This document shows, one piece after another, positions 26,026 through 32,848 of a DNA stretch of 34,231 nucleotides. Below the pieces are notes generated by a model that made no database searches, was not told the DNA's origin, and was given only the letters and a program-made list of their open reading frames with translations. Origin of the DNA: Bacteroidota bacterium (GTDB taxonomy: Bacteria > Bacteroidota > Ignavibacteria > Kapaibacteriales > UBA961); contig JADZAA010000058.1 of the NCBI GenBank assembly GCA_020852855.1, forward strand, positions 1 to 34,231, in the 5' to 3' direction. Positions within the stretch are counted from its first letter, which is position 1; every line of letters begins with the position of its first letter. Made by a program: the position numbers and the translations under genes.

Positions 26026-27306
26026 ATGAGTGTTTTAGTTAATTCAAACTCTCGTGTCTTAGTGCAAGGCATAACCGGCTCGGAGGGTACGTTCCATACG
26101 AGTCAAATGCTGGACTATGGCACAAACGTGGTAGCCGGCGTAACCCCGGGCAAAGCGGGGTTGATGTACGAAGGTAAGGGCGATGACTCTTTTAACCGTC
26201 CCGTGCTTGTATTTAATACTGTATCCGATGCAGTAAAAGCGACGAGGGCAAACGTTTCGATAATTTTTGTACCGGCTTCTATGGCCGCCGATGCCATATT
26301 GGAAGCGATAGCGGCTGATATGCCGCTTATTATCTGCATTACAGAGGGAATTCCCGCACGCGATATGATAGCGGTAAAGTCGGCTCTCGATAATTCAAAT
26401 TCACGGCTTATCGGGCCTAATTGCCCCGGAATCATTACGCCCGGCGAATGTAAAATCGGCATTATGCCAGGATTTATTCATGCAGTCGGGCATGTGGGAG
26501 TCGTTTCGCGCAGCGGAACACTGACTTACGAAGCAGTAAAGCAATTAACCGATATTGGTTTGGGGCAGTCAACTTGCATCGGCATAGGCGGCGACCCGAT
26601 TGTCGGAACGCAATTTATTGATGCCATAAAATTATTCAATGCAGACCCCGATACCAAAGCCATTGTTATGATTGGAGAAATCGGCGGAAGTGCGGAGGAA
26701 GAAGCAGCGGCTTATGTGAAAGAATACGTTACAAAGCCGGTTGTCGGGTTTATTGCGGGGCGTACTGCACCTCCGGGCAGAAGAATGGGGCATGCAGGGG
26801 CGATAATTTCAGGCGGTAAAGGAACAGCCGCAGAAAAAGTTGCCGCAATGCGCGAAGCAGGCATCTTTGTAGCCGATTCTCCGGCAAATATAGGGCTGAC
26901 CGTAGCAAAAGCCTTGCGCCTTACAAGCGAAACACCGACCAAAAAAGTAATTGCGGCAAAAAAAGATACCGCACTCCAAACAGAAGTATCCGAAACTATA
27001 TCTGAAATTCCTGCAACGACAGACGGATCCGCTCCCAAGCGCGGACGCGGTCGCCCGAAAGGTTCGTTTAAGGTAAAGCCGGCGACAGATGAAACAGCTC
27101 CCAAGCGTGAGCGCGGTCGCCCGAAAGGTTCAGTTAAGAAGAAGAAAGCGGTAAAAACCGGGCATAAGCGTCCTCCGGGTCGCCCGAAAGGTTCAGTTAA
27201 GAAGAAGAAAGTGAAAAAAAACAATAAAAAACAGCTTATGTCTGTTGCCGAGCAAGTTACAACGGTTGCGTCGAATATTGATATGACATCTGCAAGTAAC
27301 GCATAG
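26026..27306 (+). CDS. sucD: Succinyl-CoA ligase alpha subunit with C-terminal AT-hook-like tail
   Basis: 426 aa. Residues 1 to about 300 are a complete Suc[16 protein letters not shown] (CoA-binding Rossmann), [40 protein letters not shown] and the phosphorylated histidine His256 in [14 protein letters not shown]. SucD normally ends there (E. coli 289 aa). This frame continues without a stop for about 126 residues rich in Lys, Pro and Thr, with three GRPKGS motifs at residues 342, 364 and 385, each preceded by basic or proline residues and followed by lysines; the last two are followed by KKKK. This is the AT-hook-like minor-groove-binding pattern. The beta subunit gene sucC is not adjacent. 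The tail end ([21 protein letters not shown]) is uncharged. A DNA-binding role for the tail is inference. Confidence 0.9.
27049..27211 (+). repeat. Tandem in-frame repeat encoding the GRPKGS units of SucD
   Basis: Three copies start with GGTCGCCCGAAAGGTTC at 27049, 27115 and 27178. Copies 2 and 3 are identical over 34 bp (27115-27148 and 27178-27211). Spacings are 66 and 63 bp, that is 22 and 21 codons, so the frame is preserved. Identity at the DNA level indicates recent duplication or gene-conversion-like exchange. Confidence 0.9.
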
Positions 27307-27386
27307 AAACGAACTGCTGTAAAGCGGCGATAAAAATGCCGCATACGGTATTTAATCACAAATAAAACAACAAATTGGAAGACATG

Positions 27387-27815
27387 ATGAAAGAACGGAC
27401 ATTTGCAATTATCAAGCCGGACGCTGTTCGCAAGAATGTAGTCGGAGAGATTATTGCCGCAATTACGCAAGCCGGATTTACAGTACTTGCAATGAAGATG
27501 ACACGCATCAGCCGCGCTCAAGCCGCCGAGTTTTATGCAGTTCATCGCGGGCGCGGATTTTTTGACGAGTTGGTTGATTTTATGAGCAGTGGTGCTATCG
27601 TACCCATAGTGCTCGAAAAAGAAAACGCCGTAGCCGACTATCGTGCGCTTATCGGCACTACTGACCCGGCCGAAGCCGCAGAAGGTACGATTCGTAGAAT
27701 GTTTGCTTCGTCGAAGGGCGAAAATGCGGTGCATGGTTCAGATTCCGTTGAAAACGGAAAAAACGAAACAGCATTTTTCTTCGCTGAAAGCGAAATTGCC
27801 GGAAATCGTGCATAA
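27387..27815 (+). CDS. ndk: Nucleoside diphosphate kinase
   Basis: Balances nucleoside triphosphate pools by ping-pong phosphotransfer through a histidine. The 142-aa protein begins [17 protein letters not shown] and contains [17 protein letters not shown] and the active-site NAVHGSDS with His116. ATG codons at 27384 and 27387 are both possible. I chose 27387 because GGAAG (27377-27381) sits 5 nt before it. The C-terminal AFFFAESEI is standard. It lies 80 bp after sucD, with a terminator downstream. Confidence 0.95.
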
Positions 27816-27863
27816 AACCCGCCAAATTCCAACTTAATATGGAGTTGCATACATAGAAAAAAT

Positions 27864-27908
27864 AGGCTCCGCCTCGGCTTAACGTCGGTGCGGGGCTTGT
27901 TTTTTATT
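27864..27908 (+). terminator. Rho-independent terminator after ndk
   Basis: Outer stem GCTCCGC (27866-27872) pairs with GCGGGGC (27890-27896). After one mismatch an inner 5-bp stem closes a TTAAC loop (27879-27883). TTGTTTTTTATT follows. It ends the sucD-ndk transcript before the NUDIX gene. Confidence 0.8.
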
Positions 27909-27941: not shown

Positions 27942-28475
27942 ATGAAAGTCCTAATACGTAACAGCAGTACTAAAATACTCGGAACAAATCCATTCTGGGA
28001 TTACGTGCAAGAAGAGTATCTTCTGCCTGACGGAAAGCCTGCGCCGTATTATTATGCTCGTTCTCGCAACTCTTCTATAGTCATTCCGCAATTAGACAAC
28101 GGATTATTCGTTTTGGTAAAACAATTCCGTTATCTTGGTGGCAGAACCGGAATAGAATTTCCGGGTGGCGGGCATAAGCCGGGACATTCGCCCGAAATGA
28201 CTGCACACGAAGAAATGCGCGAAGAGGCCGGGATAACCGAAGCAGAACTTACGTTTATCGGTACGTTCAATCCATGCATCGGAATTACCGATGAGGTATG
28301 CTCTGTCTACTATGCTAAGGCGACAAGTCTGTCGGTGCCGCAGCCGGAGCCCTCGGAGGAAATCGAGGTGATTTTCGCAACTGCCGAAGACATTTGTAAA
28401 TTTATCGCACAAGGAGAAATATGGAACGGTATGAGTTTGGCCGCATGGGCGTTATTTCGTCTGCGAGGCTTATAG
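27942..28475 (+). CDS. NUDIX hydrolase, ADP-ribose-pyrophosphatase-like with divergent Nudix box
   Basis: 177 aa, architecture of ADP-sugar/ADP-ribose pyrophosphatases: N-terminal beta region (YYYARSRNSSIVIPQL), VLVKQFRYLGGRTGIEFPGGG, then the Nudix box at about 76-98. The consensus is Gx5Ex7REUxEExGU. Here the first Glu is His82 and the Arg of REU is Glu90 (AHEEMREEAGI), while Glu91, Glu94 and Glu95, the metal-binding core, are retained. Downstream FNPCIGITDEVCSVYYA fits ADPR-type enzymes. Substrate unknown; activity is plausible but not certain. The last 55 bp overlap the next gene in another frame. Confidence 0.83.
   Translation: MKVLIRNSSTKILGTNPFWDYVQEEYLLPDGKPAPYYYARSRNSSIVIPQLDNGLFVLVKQFRYLGGRTGIEFPGGGHKPGHSPEMTAHEEMREEAGITEAELTFIGTFNPCIGITDEVCSVYYAKATSLSVPQPEPSEEIEVIFATAEDICKFIAQGEIWNGMSLAAWALFRLRGL
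28412..28416 (+). promoter_or_regulatory. Ribosome binding site inside the NUDIX gene
   Basis: AGGAG, 4 nt before the ATG at 28421, lies within the NUDIX coding sequence. It supports starting the secreted-protein gene at 28421 instead of the next in-frame ATG (28445), and so supports a 55-bp gene overlap. Confidence 0.7.
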
Positions 28476-29467
28476 GACGGACAATAATAGCTTCTGCAAT
28501 AATTGTTGCATCTTTTGCATCGGTTACTGCGCAAGAAGCTCAGGTTGCAGGACAGCCGATTCGAAAAAAATACTCGATTAAGGTTGATTTTCCTCAAAAC
28601 GTGGCAAGCAGCTATGCCATGACCGAAAAAACAATCGTAAAGCGCGATTATCGCGACGACCAGCATAAAAATTACGAACGTGAAGTGTCGTATTATTTTA
28701 CAATGGGTACAATCGGCGAAACAGAAGATGGGTTGACAAAATTATTATGCAATATAGATTCGCTGAAATATTCGTTCAAAGAGGGCAATGTAGCCCTGCA
28801 ATATGACTCGCAAAATCCGCGCGCCTCGAATATTAAAGGTGATTTTGCGGACTTGACTTATACGCAAGCCCCGCTGAACCATATGTTCGTATTGTTATTG
28901 GACAAAAAGAATATTGTAAAAGGAATTACCGGAAACGGTGAAAGCGGAGATGTTGAGTGGTTGCGCAACTTTATTCTTGTGGAGGGTGCGGAATCTATGG
29001 ACACCGCACAGAAATTTTTGTGGCTTGACGGCATATCGCTCAACCGATTGCAAACGCTGGTAGATATGAATGGCGGCCTTATACGCGAAAGAATGTTGAT
29101 AGCCGATGATTCGTCGTGGTCGCAACCTTCGCTTATTCGGCTGGATTGCATAGAATTTACCGATACGCTAACGGCAAAAGTAACGGCTGTTTCCCGTGGC
29201 GTATATTCGATAGAATCAACTGTTTCGGGGCTGAAAGCGAATGTTAACCGCGAGCATCGGATGTTTGGAATACCGGGGCCGGGAACAGTGCTGTCCACAG
29301 AATACGGCAGCGGAAAAACAAAATTGAAAGTCAATCAGAAAGGTTCGATACGCGGCTACGATGCCGATTTTACCGCAAAGTTGAATTGCCGGTACGGAAA
29401 CGAAAAATTTGTTCAAACAATTACGACTTCAATAAGATGCTCTATTCTAAATCAATTCGGCTGGTAA
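28421..29467 (+). CDS. Exported protein of unknown function (DUF6263-like organisation)
   Basis: 348 aa. A signal peptide is visible: a longer than usual n-region, hydrophobic TIIASAIIVASFASVTA, probable cleavage before Gln38. The mature part is predicted beta-rich with no cysteine motif or lipobox. It has a region KYSIKVDF...VSYYFTMGTIGETEDGLTKLLCNIDSLKYS, then an ordered domain with TVLSTEYGSGKTKLKV near the end. The layout (modified input strand, then ILYY/VSYY-like strand, dG-l, DSl) parallels the next gene product, suggesting distant paralogy. I do not recognise a biochemical function. It overlaps the NUDIX gene by 55 bp and the following lipoprotein gene by 31 bp, each in a different frame. 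Confidence 0.72.
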   Translation: MERYEFGRMGVISSARLIGRTIIASAIIVASFASVTAQEAQVAGQPIRKKYSIKVDFPQNVASSYAMTEKTIVKRDYRDDQHKNYEREVSYYFTMGTIGETEDGLTKLLCNIDSLKYSFKEGNVALQYDSQNPRASNIKGDFADLTYTQAPLNHMFVLLLDKKNIVKGITGNGESGDVEWLRNFILVEGAESMDTAQKFLWLDGISLNRLQTLVDMNGGLIRERMLIADDSSWSQPSLIRLDCIEFTDTLTAKVTAVSRGVYSIESTVSGLKANVNREHRMFGIPGPGTVLSTEYGSGKTKLKVNQKGSIRGYDADFTAKLNCRYGNEKFVQTITTSIRCSILNQFGW

Positions 29468-30510
29468 ATTTTCTTAGGCTTACGGTATTATGCGTCTGTA
29501 TCATTGGCGTTTCGGGTTGCAGCGAAACTAAACAAGAAAATCCCGAACAAACGTCGGTTAAATCAGTCGCACCCGCACCTGCGGAACTCTCCGAGGCACG
29601 TCCGCTTGCAGGTGCCGAAGCAGAAGTTAAATCATTGCAGTATAGAGTTAAGCCGGGCGATGTATTCCGCTATAAATTCAGCCAGCGCGATAAACTCGTG
29701 CAAGATGGAATGAATGCCGAAACGGAGCAAATTCTATATTATACAAAAACTATAAAAGCCGTAAAATCAGACGGCTCGGTAGAAATGTCGGTACGCTATG
29801 ATTCAATTCGCCTTTCGAATGATTATCCGGATGCACAAGACTCAACAAAACGTGCATCATCAAGCTACAATTCTTCCAATAAAGCCGACCGTGAGAATAA
29901 AGAATACAGTCAGTATAACGGCATTATCGGCGAAGATGTTACAATGCTTGTTTCAAAAGACGGACGTATCAGCGAAATCAGCGGTCTTACGCCACTGTTG
30001 TCTAAAATTTTCGGCGAAATGAAAGATTCGCTTAATGTGCAAATGCAGGAGCAGGCACTCGAACAAATTAAAGTGCAACTTTATCTGCGCCCGATGCAAC
30101 AAGAATACCAAAACTATCCCGACGGCGGTACAATAGATTCGTCAAAATCATGGAAGCGCAGCGAGCGTTCTCCTTTATCGGGTGTTTTCCTCGTGGATAA
30201 TGATATTGCGTATCGCCTCGACGCGGTGAAAAATGTCGGTATGCGCAAGGCTGCCTATATTTCGGCCAAACTCACTTCCAAAATCGTTAATCCTTTGCAA
30301 AAGCAAGGCTCGATAACGTTTAAATTGAATAAATCAGAAATTTCCGGTTCGGGCGAAACCGTTCTCGATGTGGATAAAGGATATACTATATTGAAGAAAA
30401 ATACTATCAACACTATGATTGATGCGGTGTTGGGCGATGCAAAAACAAAACAGTCGAAACGTGCTTTGCAAACGCTTGTTTCTACCATGAAAGTCGAATT
30501 GATACGGTAG
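29437..30510 (+). CDS. DUF6263-like lipoprotein of unknown function
   Basis: 357 aa from ATG 29437. The frame is open back to 29386, but that extension (MPVRKRKICSNN...) would precede the signal sequence and is unlikely. Signal LRLTVLCVCIIGVSGC with lipobox Cys28 gives a lipid-anchored periplasmic or outer-membrane protein. After a Pro/Glu-rich linker comes YRVKPGDVFRYKFSQRDKL, TKTIKAVKSDGSVEMSVRYDSIRLS, a low-complexity Ser/Asn/Asp linker (about 140-165), GEDVTMLVSKDGRISEISG, and later GSGETVLDVDKGYTILKKN. The pattern of strand-rich DUF6263 proteins in Bacteroidota fits; function is unknown. It is the last gene of the rightward NUDIX unit and is followed by two hairpins. Confidence 0.74.
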   Translation: MLYSKSIRLVNFLRLTVLCVCIIGVSGCSETKQENPEQTSVKSVAPAPAELSEARPLAGAEAEVKSLQYRVKPGDVFRYKFSQRDKLVQDGMNAETEQILYYTKTIKAVKSDGSVEMSVRYDSIRLSNDYPDAQDSTKRASSSYNSSNKADRENKEYSQYNGIIGEDVTMLVSKDGRISEISGLTPLLSKIFGEMKDSLNVQMQEQALEQIKVQLYLRPMQQEYQNYPDGGTIDSSKSWKRSERSPLSGVFLVDNDIAYRLDAVKNVGMRKAAYISAKLTSKIVNPLQKQGSITFKLNKSEISGSGETVLDVDKGYTILKKNTINTMIDAVLGDAKTKQSKRALQTLVSTMKVELIR

Positions 30511-30571: not shown

Positions 30572-30579
30572 GGAACAAT

Positions 30580-30610
30580 AAAAAATACCCGCTGTCGGCG
30601 GGTATTTTTT
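30580..30610. terminator. Bidirectional terminator between convergent genes
   Basis: A-run (30580-30585), then TACCCGC (30586-30592), loop TGTCG (30593-30597) and GCGGGTA followed by TTTTTT (30605-30610). The stem is 13 bp and has a U-tract on both strands. It separates the rightward lipoprotein gene from leftward DUF302. Confidence 0.9.
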
Positions 30611-30661
30611 ATATACGAAAGAAAGTACTGTTCAATTAAAGCCGGCATTTAATTTTGCATA

Positions 30662-31048
30662 TTACAGACTCTCGATTACATTGCGTAATTTCATTTGAAC
30701 TTTAACGGCTGTTTCGGCTAACCCTTCGCTTTTAACAGCCTGCATAGAAGATACAGGATCTACGGCCGACACTTCTACTTGCTCATGGTTTATTTCTTGT
30801 AAAACTACGTTGCAAGGTAACATAGCACCTATATGCGGTTCGGCTTTTAATGCCTCGTAAGCAAACGCCGGATTGCAAGCGCCAAGTATATGATAAGGCC
30901 TGAAATCTACGTCCAATTTCTTTTTAAACGTAGCTTGTACGTCTATCTCGGTTATTACTCCGAATCCTTCCTCTTTTAACGCTTCAACAACCTTTTCTTT
31001 AATATCTTCGAAGCGGCCGCTCAGTATTTTCGAAAAATGGTAAGCCAT
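30662..31048 (-). CDS. DUF302 domain-containing protein
   Basis: 128 aa from ATG 31048, set by GGAG (31054-31057) 5 nt upstream. The frame extends to 31075 but those nine codons lack support. Nearly the whole protein is the DUF302 fold: EALKEEGFGVITEIDVQATFKKKL, then YHILGACNPAFAYEAL and the GAMLPCNVVLQE motif with its conserved cysteine. The family is widespread, and a heme- or metal-binding role has been suggested but not settled. It stands alone, leftward, with a terminator at its 3' side shared with the lipoprotein gene and about 250 bp of non-coding DNA upstream of it. Confidence 0.9.
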   Translation of the reverse strand: MAYHFSKILSGRFEDIKEKVVEALKEEGFGVITEIDVQATFKKKLDVDFRPYHILGACNPAFAYEALKAEPHIGAMLPCNVVLQEINHEQVEVSAVDPVSSMQAVKSEGLAETAVKVQMKLRNVIESL

Positions 31049-31053
31049 TGTAA

Positions 31054-31057
31054 CTCC
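31054..31057 (-). promoter_or_regulatory. Ribosome binding site of the DUF302 gene
   Basis: GGAG on the minus strand, 5 nt before the ATG at 31048. It decides that start over the upstream one at 31075. Confidence 0.6.
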
Positions 31058-31300
31058 GTTTTTATGAAAAAACATTTTTTTTTATCTTGTTTTTTACCGA
31101 GTTCCTGTCGGGTGTGCAATAACAAGCGTAAGCAATATGAGCTGTATTGTAAAAAACAAAAATAAAACGCTGACTTTCAGACGAAAAAGTGTGTTAAATA
31201 TTTTAATGAAATATTAAATCGACCGATCAAGGTTCAATCCGAATTGCAGAAAAACTTCTTTGAAGATGAATTGTTAAGCTAAATTTCTATTTCTTGATTT

Positions 31301-32848
31301 TTATTTTTCCAACAAGGCAAATTTGGCGAATTGTTCCATGCATACTTCAAGTGCAACACGGAGTATTTCATCGGTTTCTGTTCCTGTTGCAAGCGGATTG
31401 CCGTTCTCGTCGGCAAGTTTAAATTCCTCGCGCTCAAGCGAGCCTTTGAGTAAATCGAATAATTCGTCCTGCGAGCGTGTTCCGTCTGCATTGCGTAAAA
31501 GAATAAGCGGAACAGGTTCGTCGAATTGAGCTGCCGAATGGTGTAGGGTAGAGGCTACATTGCCCGACAGAGCCTGCAGTCGCGCCACATCGCTTATTTT
31601 AGGATACGCGCCGGCTTTGGCAACGGCTAATGTAGGTCCGTCGTAAAAATAGCCAAGCATATCGTCATAGCATTGTCTGCAAAGAGCAATTATCGTTTCC
31701 TCGTCACTTTCAACATTGCTCGAGCTACCCGATTTGCGCAATAAATTGCTGAAAGTTACGGGTAGCGGATTGCACTCGGCCAAATAGGCTATAGCCCGTG
31801 CAAGCGTTGGATTACCGCTGCCGATAACTAATCCGTTTGGTGCTGCATATTGCGGAACACCTTCGGGTGAATCATCTGTACGAGTAAGCGAAGAGCCGAT
31901 ATAAAGTCGTTTGAAATTTGAGTTGTCAAGCTCATGCGGCGAGTTGCTTTCGGCTTTGCATAGCAACGTTTTGCGAAATTGTCGCCCTATAAAAAAGTCC
32001 AGCCATTGCTCGCGCTCTATGCGGTCAGAAGCACGATTCGAGATTTCTTGCAACACTCGCTCGGGTGCATTATGCAGTTGCGTTCCTTGTGAAAATGCTT
32101 CGGCTACGTATTCCAAGCCGTTGTTTCGTGCCTTTTCGATAAATTCATGAAAATACGACGGTGTATTGTCGTCCTCAAAGTATTCATGGCCTAAATACGC
32201 ATCGTTACTACGACCGAACGAGTCCGAAGTCGAATTTACCACAGCCGAATACGCGGTATTATCGCTACCTCCAATCTGTTTTACATCTTGCAGGAATGTA
32301 CGCGATGCACCTATTCGCTCGTAAATATCGGCAGTCGGCGGAATGCCCGATTCCAATACTTCGCGAATCATACGATAGCCATGCCAGCCGGGATAAGCAT
32401 TGTAACTTATGTATCCGATGCCGTGGGGCGTTAACAATTCTGCATATATTCGCATTATCGCTTGTTGAACATCTGGTGGAACCCATGAATAAACGCCGTG
32501 CGTGATGATATAATCGAAACTGCCTAAATTTTGCGGTAGATTTAATATGTCAGCCGTATAAAAGCGACAGTTTTTCAGATTAAGTGCGGCAACCGAACGC
32601 TCGGCAGCAGTAATATGTACGGGGGCATAATCTATACCGACACATTCTGCATCGGGCAAAGTATAGGCGATATTCAGCAGATTGCCTCCGTCGGAGCAAC
32701 CAAGCTCTAAAACGCGGCAATTTTGTGAATCTGGTGCGTCAACGCCGTGAAGTATCGCAACTGCGGCCAATCTCGACGGATGCGTTTGCGAGAAGGCCGC
32801 GCCGGGATACGGCAAATTATCGTAAGATTGGGCAGTACTCATCGGCAA
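31301..32848 (-). CDS. Methyltransferase with regulatory domain, resembling rickettsial OmpB protein-lysine methyltransferases
   Basis: 515 aa. The N-terminal Rossmann domain has YDNLPYPGAAFSQTHPSRLAAVA (9-31), motif I RVLELGCSDGGNLLNIA (45-61), GIDYAP and the family-specific HGVYSWVPP (117-125), followed by GYISYNAYPGWH. The middle (about 190-300; FHEFIEKARNNGLEYVAEA) matches the methyltransferase regulatory domain, and about 310-500 the PKMT C-terminal region. The nearest characterised relatives are rickettsial PKMT1/PKMT2, which methylate lysines of surface protein OmpB. The substrate here is unknown; a surface protein is an inference. The ATG at 32842 is an equally good start. It is monocistronic with AT-rich flanks. 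Confidence 0.85.
   Translation of the reverse strand: MPMSTAQSYDNLPYPGAAFSQTHPSRLAAVAILHGVDAPDSQNCRVLELGCSDGGNLLNIAYTLPDAECVGIDYAPVHITAAERSVAALNLKNCRFYTADILNLPQNLGSFDYIITHGVYSWVPPDVQQAIMRIYAELLTPHGIGYISYNAYPGWHGYRMIREVLESGIPPTADIYERIGASRTFLQDVKQIGGSDNTAYSAVVNSTSDSFGRSNDAYLGHEYFEDDNTPSYFHEFIEKARNNGLEYVAEAFSQGTQLHNAPERVLQEISNRASDRIEREQWLDFFIGRQFRKTLLCKAESNSPHELDNSNFKRLYIGSSLTRTDDSPEGVPQYAAPNGLVIGSGNPTLARAIAYLAECNPLPVTFSNLLRKSGSSSNVESDEETIIALCRQCYDDMLGYFYDGPTLAVAKAGAYPKISDVARLQALSGNVASTLHHSAAQFDEPVPLILLRNADGTRSQDELFDLLKGSLEREEFKLADENGNPLATGTETDEILRVALEVCMEQFAKFALLEK

Follow-up and report, generated by a model that had tools for sequence, protein, structure and literature searches.

A predicted soluble and lipid-anchored pair of DUF6263-type proteins with a putative lipid-transfer-type barrel in a conserved gene neighborhood of Bacteroidota

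LolA and LolB are soluble and lipid-anchored paralogues, respectively, and LolA passes its cargo to LolB. Like RseB/MucB and LmcA, they are periplasmic lipid or lipoprotein binders built as a barrel with inner helices. A beta-barrel also forms the N-terminal part of the large lipid transfer proteins of animals, represented by lipovitellin (1lsh), ApoB (9bd8 and 9bd1), MTP (6i7s), and honey bee vitellogenin (9ens). PA1994 (DUF1089) folds as a beta-sheet wrapped around a helix, and the excerpted text of its report names lipovitellin and LolA in the authors’ DALI list (PMC2954207). Here, we describe contig JADZAA010000058.1 of a Bacteroidota bacterium (GCA_020852855.1), analyzed as one stretch of 34,231 nt, hereafter the window. 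Three overlapping genes on its forward strand encode a NUDIX hydrolase, an exported soluble DUF6263-like protein that we name EXPA, and a DUF6263 lipoprotein. The new content of this work is the soluble and anchored DUF6263-type pair, for which structural models predict a lipid-transfer-type barrel. No paper on DUF6263 was found in the open-licence literature.

The lipoprotein gene (ATG 29437 to 30510) encodes a member of DUF6263 (PF19777), with a score of 45 bits against a cut-off of 26.7 and a matching stretch at 29770 to 30378. EXPA (preferred ATG 28445 to 29467, alternative ATG 28421) matched no Pfam family up to an E-value of 1 and so lies below the DUF6263 cut-off. Six EXPA orthologues exceeded this cut-off (G014, G023, G030, G042, G056, and G060, the last being locus L076). 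When the EXPA and lipoprotein profiles were aligned with hhalign, after 10 EXPA rows had been cleaned from the lipoprotein alignment, the match extended over 269 columns with a probability of 98.1% (E 8e-14). A tree of 124 rows set the 50 EXPA rows apart on a branch with a Shimodaira-Hasegawa-like approximate likelihood ratio (SH-aLRT) support of 100; this tree was built by a quick method, has long branches and an uneven composition, was rooted for drawing only, and left out one truncated lipoprotein (L070). These comparisons established EXPA and the lipoprotein, at the level of sequence, as old and divergent DUF6263 paralogues. The earlier note on this DNA had described two exported proteins of unknown function; both are predicted to be exported, and the profile match adds that they are related to each other.

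The two paralogues differ in their N-termini. The 26 aligned lipoproteins all share Cys28, and the 48 aligned EXPA have no Cys that is invariant. Signal peptides were assessed visually and with a simple Cys pattern; as this pattern also picked out some EXPA leaders, the distinction between soluble and anchored forms rests on the invariant Cys. EXPA is thus predicted to be a soluble exported copy and its partner a lipoprotein with a Cys anchor. The lipoprotein form is class-wide, with class-level DUF6263 N-termini being lipoprotein-like in 22 of 24 cases by pattern and in the other two by eye, and EXPA is one clade of this order. The simplest history would be a single duplication of a DUF6263 lipoprotein followed by loss of the anchor in one copy, a direction that the tree leaves unproven. 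The same genome also carries a third DUF6263-like protein (L120, contig C77, 235 to 1134, forward strand), which sits on a long branch among phylum-level DUF6263 proteins.

AlphaFold models, made from separate alignments, reached predicted local distance difference test (pLDDT) scores of 90.9 for EXPA and 85.5 for the lipoprotein. Both models form a large beta-barrel with inner helices, and three mid-protein helices are predicted in EXPA. In Foldseek, the six highest-ranked entries for EXPA were from MTP, lipovitellin, ApoB, and vitellogenin; for the lipoprotein, the three leading ranks went to ApoB and MTP. The top VIA-align match of both models was lipovitellin, with Z-scores of 15.2 (4.4 Å, 220 residues) and 14.9 (4.1 Å, 221 residues), respectively. 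The lipovitellin region matched was the N-terminal barrel, residues 17–264 for EXPA and 17–260 for the lipoprotein. The vitellogenin/ApoB/MTP family held the top six rows for EXPA and the top five for the lipoprotein, down to MTP at Z 12.9 and 12.3, respectively. The best lipid-transfer match stood about 3 Z units above the first unrelated row, and the weakest, MTP, about 0.5 above it. LolA, MucB, and LmcA types followed at Z 7–9 (LolA 8cgm at 8.1 for EXPA, MucB 6in8 at 8.9 for the lipoprotein), and the Pfam scan up to E 1 gave no LolA or LolB match for either protein. In both, the chain stops where the barrel does; the helical domain and lipid-binding sheets of the large lipid transfer proteins are absent. 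Based on these models, both exported proteins are predicted to resemble the lipovitellin/ApoB/MTP-type N-terminal barrel and, less closely, LolA/RseB. The earlier note had proposed a structural comparison of the two proteins, and in the comparison made here both models ranked this same barrel first.

Several results weigh against interpreting these proteins as a lipid-handling pair. By query length, the lipid transfer proteins reached Foldseek TM-scores of only 0.35–0.45, with root-mean-square deviations of 7–10 Å. The next VIA-align entry was a type VI secretion cargo-complex chain (9jg8_A), at Z 12.4 for EXPA and 11.9 for the lipoprotein; autotransporter barrels reached Z 11–12, and CymA followed as well. 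With unrelated barrels following so closely, general barrel geometry accounts for some of the match. In VIA-align, middling Z-scores are common and a shared fold is no proof of function. PDB profile searches with both proteins up to E 10 returned no lipid transfer protein, and the Pfam scan up to E 1 returned no lipid-carrier or vitellogenin family for either. An excerpt of a vitellogenin study places the presumed lipid-binding region in domains other than the barrel (PMC8727950), so, as far as that excerpt goes, a barrel by itself is no sign of lipid binding. The simple Cys pattern also flagged 12 of 50 EXPA leaders and missed 2 of 40 lipoproteins. EXPA lacked an adjacent lipoprotein gene in 10 of 49 relatives’ loci. 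Finally, LolA was found in 52 of 61 genomes, 45 of them over the cut-off, and a LolA family member is encoded elsewhere in the genome of the window.

Gene order was compared in these 61 genomes, which comprise the genome of the window and 60 relatives. EXPA gave a single match in each of 51 genomes, and its locus was read in 49 of the 50 EXPA-bearing relatives. All 49 loci carried ndk upstream, and 48 carried sucD, the remaining locus stopping at a contig end. NUDIX was present in 36 of 49 (37 of 50 counting the window), and the DUF6263 lipoprotein gene lay next downstream of EXPA in 39 of 49. Many of the named relatives are metagenome-assembled genomes labelled Candidatus Kapaibacterium, Ignavibacteria, Chlorobiota, or Bacteroidetes. 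On this sequence evidence, sucD-ndk-(NUDIX)-EXPA-DUF6263 is a conserved gene neighborhood, and the adjacency described in the earlier note is kept far beyond the strain, across the order.

Elsewhere in the class, outside this order, 22 of the 29 loci read had sucD and ndk upstream of the DUF6263 gene (L081–L109, from 28 of 31 same-class genomes listed with DUF6263). In nine chosen loci of other classes (L110–L118), neither gene was recognized beside DUF6263. The genes between ndk/NUDIX and DUF6263 in the other orders belonged to NamZ in all five cases scanned with Pfam, and a sixth intervening gene, from L096, matched no Pfam family. This L096 gene (4951 to 6027, reverse strand) encodes a diverged exported protein with a weak DUF6263 match and lies between NUDIX and a DUF6263 lipoprotein gene. 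Judged from this protein, a second copy in soluble form may predate the order studied here. Among 80 named loci, which were located via NUDIX and so presuppose its presence, the next recognized gene after NUDIX was EXPA in 48 (21 with the lipoprotein gene), NamZ in 22, DUF6263 alone in 1, and another gene in 9. Replacement of NamZ by EXPA in this slot was considered and rejected. A NamZ family member is still present in 59 of 61 genomes, on contig C32 in the genome of the window, and therefore no functional swap is implied. No paper on NamZ as a muramidase in Bacteroidetes was found in the open-licence literature.

The three open reading frames (ORFs) proposed in the earlier note, 27942–28475, 28421–29467, and 29437–30510, were borne out, and with those starts they overlap by 55 and 31 bp. 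Later starts shorten these overlaps to a minimum of 31 and 7 bp, and no later standard start abolishes either. A chance overlap of ORFs was rejected, since the proteins of all three frames are conserved across genera.

At the second junction, relatives often nest the lipoprotein start in the end of EXPA, as NTG-G-TAA from the terminal Trp codon and stop, giving a 7-bp overlap. Across 40 rows (the window and 39 relatives), ATG or GTG occupied this position in 22, and five further loci had a 10-bp version with ATG from the last-but-one Trp codon. In total, 27 of 40 lipoprotein starts were formed by the last or last-but-one codon of EXPA. The remaining 12 relatives comprised nine with another codon there and three that could not be judged, their automatic ORF lying in another frame. 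The window carries CTG at the shared position (29461), and ATG 29437 is therefore its nearest standard start, with a 31-bp overlap. Because the lipoprotein gene starts within or beside the last EXPA codons, EXPA and the lipoprotein are probably translated in a coupled manner.

At the first junction, the NUDIX/EXPA overlap spans 28421 to 28475 (55 bp), or 28445 to 28475 (31 bp) with the later start; 28421 and 28445 are the only ATG, GTG, or TTG candidates nearby, and both lie within the NUDIX gene. An AGGAG motif at 28412–28416 sits 4 nt ahead of ATG 28421. This ATG is an out-of-frame reading of the NUDIX codons ATA-TGG (Ile-Trp) in a conserved motif, GEIWDGM in the family consensus and GEIWNGM in the window, and the AGGAG is part of the NUDIX codons CAA-GGA-GAA (Gln-Gly-Glu). 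The junction set held 49 loci (the window and 48 named loci), of which 46 had the motif. Among these 46, the third base before TGG was A in 22, and AGGAG was found in 2. AGGAG was therefore rejected as a conserved ribosome site. In 37 of 49 junctions, a candidate start was located in the interval from -12 to +35 relative to the NUDIX stop. A Shine-Dalgarno-like 4-mer or longer preceded 3 of 22 other start sites in the window, which were hand-picked and mostly longest-ORF starts, so Shine-Dalgarno use looks like an exception in this window. Start 28445 gives, by inspection, a signal peptide of normal length. Since AGGAG and ATG 28421 belong to conserved NUDIX codons and AGGAG is rare in relatives, ATG 28445 is the likelier EXPA start.

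These results divide the earlier claims of co-translation across the trio and of AGGAG serving the second gene. The nested EXPA/lipoprotein starts fit translational coupling, but the AGGAG signal at the NUDIX junction is weak; the motif does stand before ATG 28421, yet it is coding sequence and recurs in only 2 of 46 junctions. A coupled-looking overlap can thus partly be a by-product of codons conserved in the upstream protein. The overlap as such is ordinary, and the interest of the locus lies in the predicted fold and in the pairing of a soluble with an anchored form.

The NUDIX hydrolase (27942 to 28475, forward strand, 177 amino acids) resembles ADP-ribose and nucleoside diphosphate (NDP)-sugar pyrophosphatases and scored 42.8 bits with the Pfam NUDIX domain, against a cut-off of 21.1. 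Its closest solved structure was Bdellovibrio NudF/NDPSase (5c7q, E 9.4e-15). The full Nudix box pattern is GX5EX7REUXEEXGU. All 32 rows conserve G76, E91, E95, and G97, and 29 of them E94. The window protein lacks the full box, its box Glu (82) being His and its box Arg (90) Glu; both positions vary in the family. In the excerpted text of PMC4629899, ADP-ribose pyrophosphatases are marked by a Pro 15 residues past the Nudix-box Gly and NDP-sugar hydrolases (NDPSases) by Asp-X-Lys at G22+65. The former was absent: every one of the 32 rows has Pro at +14, and the window protein has Cys at +15. The latter was also absent; the window has Asn-Gly-Met, and the 32 rows have Asp first in 30, Met third in 28, and Lys in none.

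The earlier note had assigned the NUDIX enzyme a shared job with the two envelope proteins, and this claim was not supported. NUDIX was missing from 13 of 49 relatives’ EXPA loci, all of which keep EXPA and the lipoprotein gene, one lipoprotein ORF (L070) being short. In these 13 genomes, no NUDIX of comparable score was found, the best reaching 70 bits versus 233 for the window protein. Conversely, among 10 genomes without EXPA, 8 have ndk, and NUDIX lies downstream of ndk in 8 of 8, in one case with two genes between. The 13 loci fall in three families (f2, f6, and f7) and the 8 genomes in one (f8), so these counts reflect few independent events. NUDIX looks like a mostly independent neighbor whose link to the exported pair is positional. 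In seven of the eight f8 genomes (L209–L214 and L216), a long ORF of about 790–1090 amino acids follows NUDIX; these ORFs have similar hydrophobic N-termini, and the L216 copy is cut by a contig end.

Taken together, we propose that a conserved unit encodes a coupled paralogue pair with lipid-transfer-type barrels that would hand over periplasmic cargo, with NUDIX a neighbor by position. We assign this explanation as a whole a probability of about one in three. EXPA and the lipoprotein would bind a hydrophobic or amphipathic periplasmic cargo, such as a lipid, an acylated protein, or a lipid-linked glycan. EXPA would act as the soluble periplasmic carrier and the lipoprotein as its membrane-anchored partner, and cargo might be passed between the two forms, by analogy with LolA and LolB. 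NUDIX would be a cytosolic nucleotide-sugar or ADP-ribose pyrophosphatase, joined by position and not by a shared pathway. LolB was found in none of the 61 genomes, which leaves room for another acceptor and proves nothing. A bolder version, in which DUF6263 proteins are bacterial vitellogenin/ApoB/MTP-type barrels and the duplicated soluble and anchored pair of Kapaibacterium relatives, produced by coupled translation, is a periplasmic carrier-acceptor relay for lipids or lipoproteins, with LolA present and no recognizable LolB, is speculative, and we consider it decidedly unlikely.

About as probable as this explanation, and likewise short of even odds, is that only the neighborhood is conserved: sucD, ndk, NUDIX, and the envelope genes would share transcripts and compact junctions but no joint pathway, and the envelope role of the exported proteins would be unrelated to lipid carriage. 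The changing occupant of the slot after NUDIX in the 80 named loci, the unlinked gene losses, and the 37 of 49 first junctions with a start near the NUDIX stop, as in ordinary compact packing, all agree with this. However, EXPA and the lipoprotein gene are adjacent in 39 of 49 loci from many genera, mostly with nested starts, which exceeds random packing. The model of the earlier note, placing NUDIX and the envelope pair in one pathway, for example nucleotide-sugar hydrolysis with a matching envelope glycan, gains from the adjacency of NUDIX in 37 of 50 order-level loci and from NamZ, a wall-degrading enzyme, filling the same slot in relatives. We regard it as unlikely, given the 13 loci that keep the pair without NUDIX, the 8 of 8 EXPA-less ndk genomes that retain NUDIX, few as the independent events are, and the missing NDP-sugar hydrolase signature.

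The barrels could instead be protein-binding scaffolds or adaptors. The chain 9jg8_A, which belongs to a VgrG-bound type VI secretion cargo complex, resembles both models (Z about 12) and comes first after the lipid transfer proteins for each, within 0.5 of MTP. In both lists, however, five or more vitellogenin/ApoB/MTP entries score above it, and no secretion genes were recognized among the 8 window proteins scanned, so a scaffold role appears doubtful. No paper on BtapC was found in the open-licence literature. An integral outer-membrane beta-barrel is very improbable for EXPA. Autotransporter, CymA, and porin barrels matched at Z 8–12, the strands are long, and many EXPA orthologues end in an aromatic residue. 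However, the overlap itself dictates this aromatic end in part, and among 10 rows without the lipoprotein gene, 5 end in a non-aromatic residue and 5 in Trp or Tyr. The lipid anchor of the paralogue and the predicted helices in the middle of EXPA also argue against an outer-membrane barrel.

The trio is flanked on both sides by strong terminator-like hairpins with U-rich 3′ arms, at 27857–27905 between ndk and NUDIX (-28.7 kcal/mol, z -5.5) and at 30578–30612 past the lipoprotein gene (-20.6 kcal/mol, z -5.7), both on the forward strand. They were detected by folding energy and missed by a simple terminator scan; the simple sigma-70 promoter and terminator scan was uninformative, with 11 and 5 sites versus 7.1 and 4.3 expected, respectively. 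Upstream on the same strand lie ndk, encoding nucleoside diphosphate kinase (27384 to 27815; Pfam NDK, 178.5 bits), and sucD, encoding succinate-CoA ligase alpha (26026 to 27306; NF004230, 456 bits). Convergent to the trio, on the reverse strand, are genes for a DUF302 protein (30662 to 31075) and for a methyltransferase that combines a regulatory domain with a PKMT-like C-terminus (31301 to 32848).

The SucD product carries a long basic C-terminal tail (residues about 298–426) with three RGRPKGS-type motifs, which we take to be AT-hook-like. Counting full-length matches, tails of at least 25 amino acids were present in 29 of 43 order-level loci and in 43 of 57 named loci, two sets that share genomes. 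Most are rich in lysine and alanine and presumably histone-H1-like. GRP motifs occurred in 1 of 43 order-level and 5 of 57 named loci, with 11 in L146. A putative DNA-binding-type tail on a metabolic enzyme recurs across the class.

Herein, our analysis gives two envelope proteins of one order previously listed as unknown, and DUF6263 more widely, a structural hypothesis, that of a lipid-carrier-type barrel. If true, it would bear on outer-membrane lipid and lipoprotein delivery in bacteria without a recognizable LolB, and on bacterial counterparts of the animal lipid-transfer barrel. Among known systems, the nearest solved NUDIX relatives are the Bdellovibrio NDPSase (Bd3179, 5c7q) and ADP-ribose pyrophosphatases, with which the window protein shares the Nudix-helix glutamates; in contrast to them, it carries neither published substrate signature. 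With respect to DUF6263, the lipoprotein is a member and EXPA a diverged sister family that is predicted to fold alike; the EXPA of the window is missed by Pfam, lacks the lipid anchor, and belongs to a separate clade of the order. The N-terminal barrel of the large animal lipid transfer proteins is the best structural match, over about 220 residues. Identity to lipovitellin is 7–9% with TM-scores below 0.5, sequence homology is not detectable, and EXPA and the lipoprotein have none of the domains found past the barrel in the animal proteins. PA1994, as described in the excerpt available, is smaller, dimeric, and from another family. The LolA/LolB group matches less well (Z about 7–9) and without sequence similarity, its members being smaller than EXPA and the lipoprotein. 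Like LolA and LolB, however, EXPA and the lipoprotein appear to be one soluble and one lipid-anchored paralogue.

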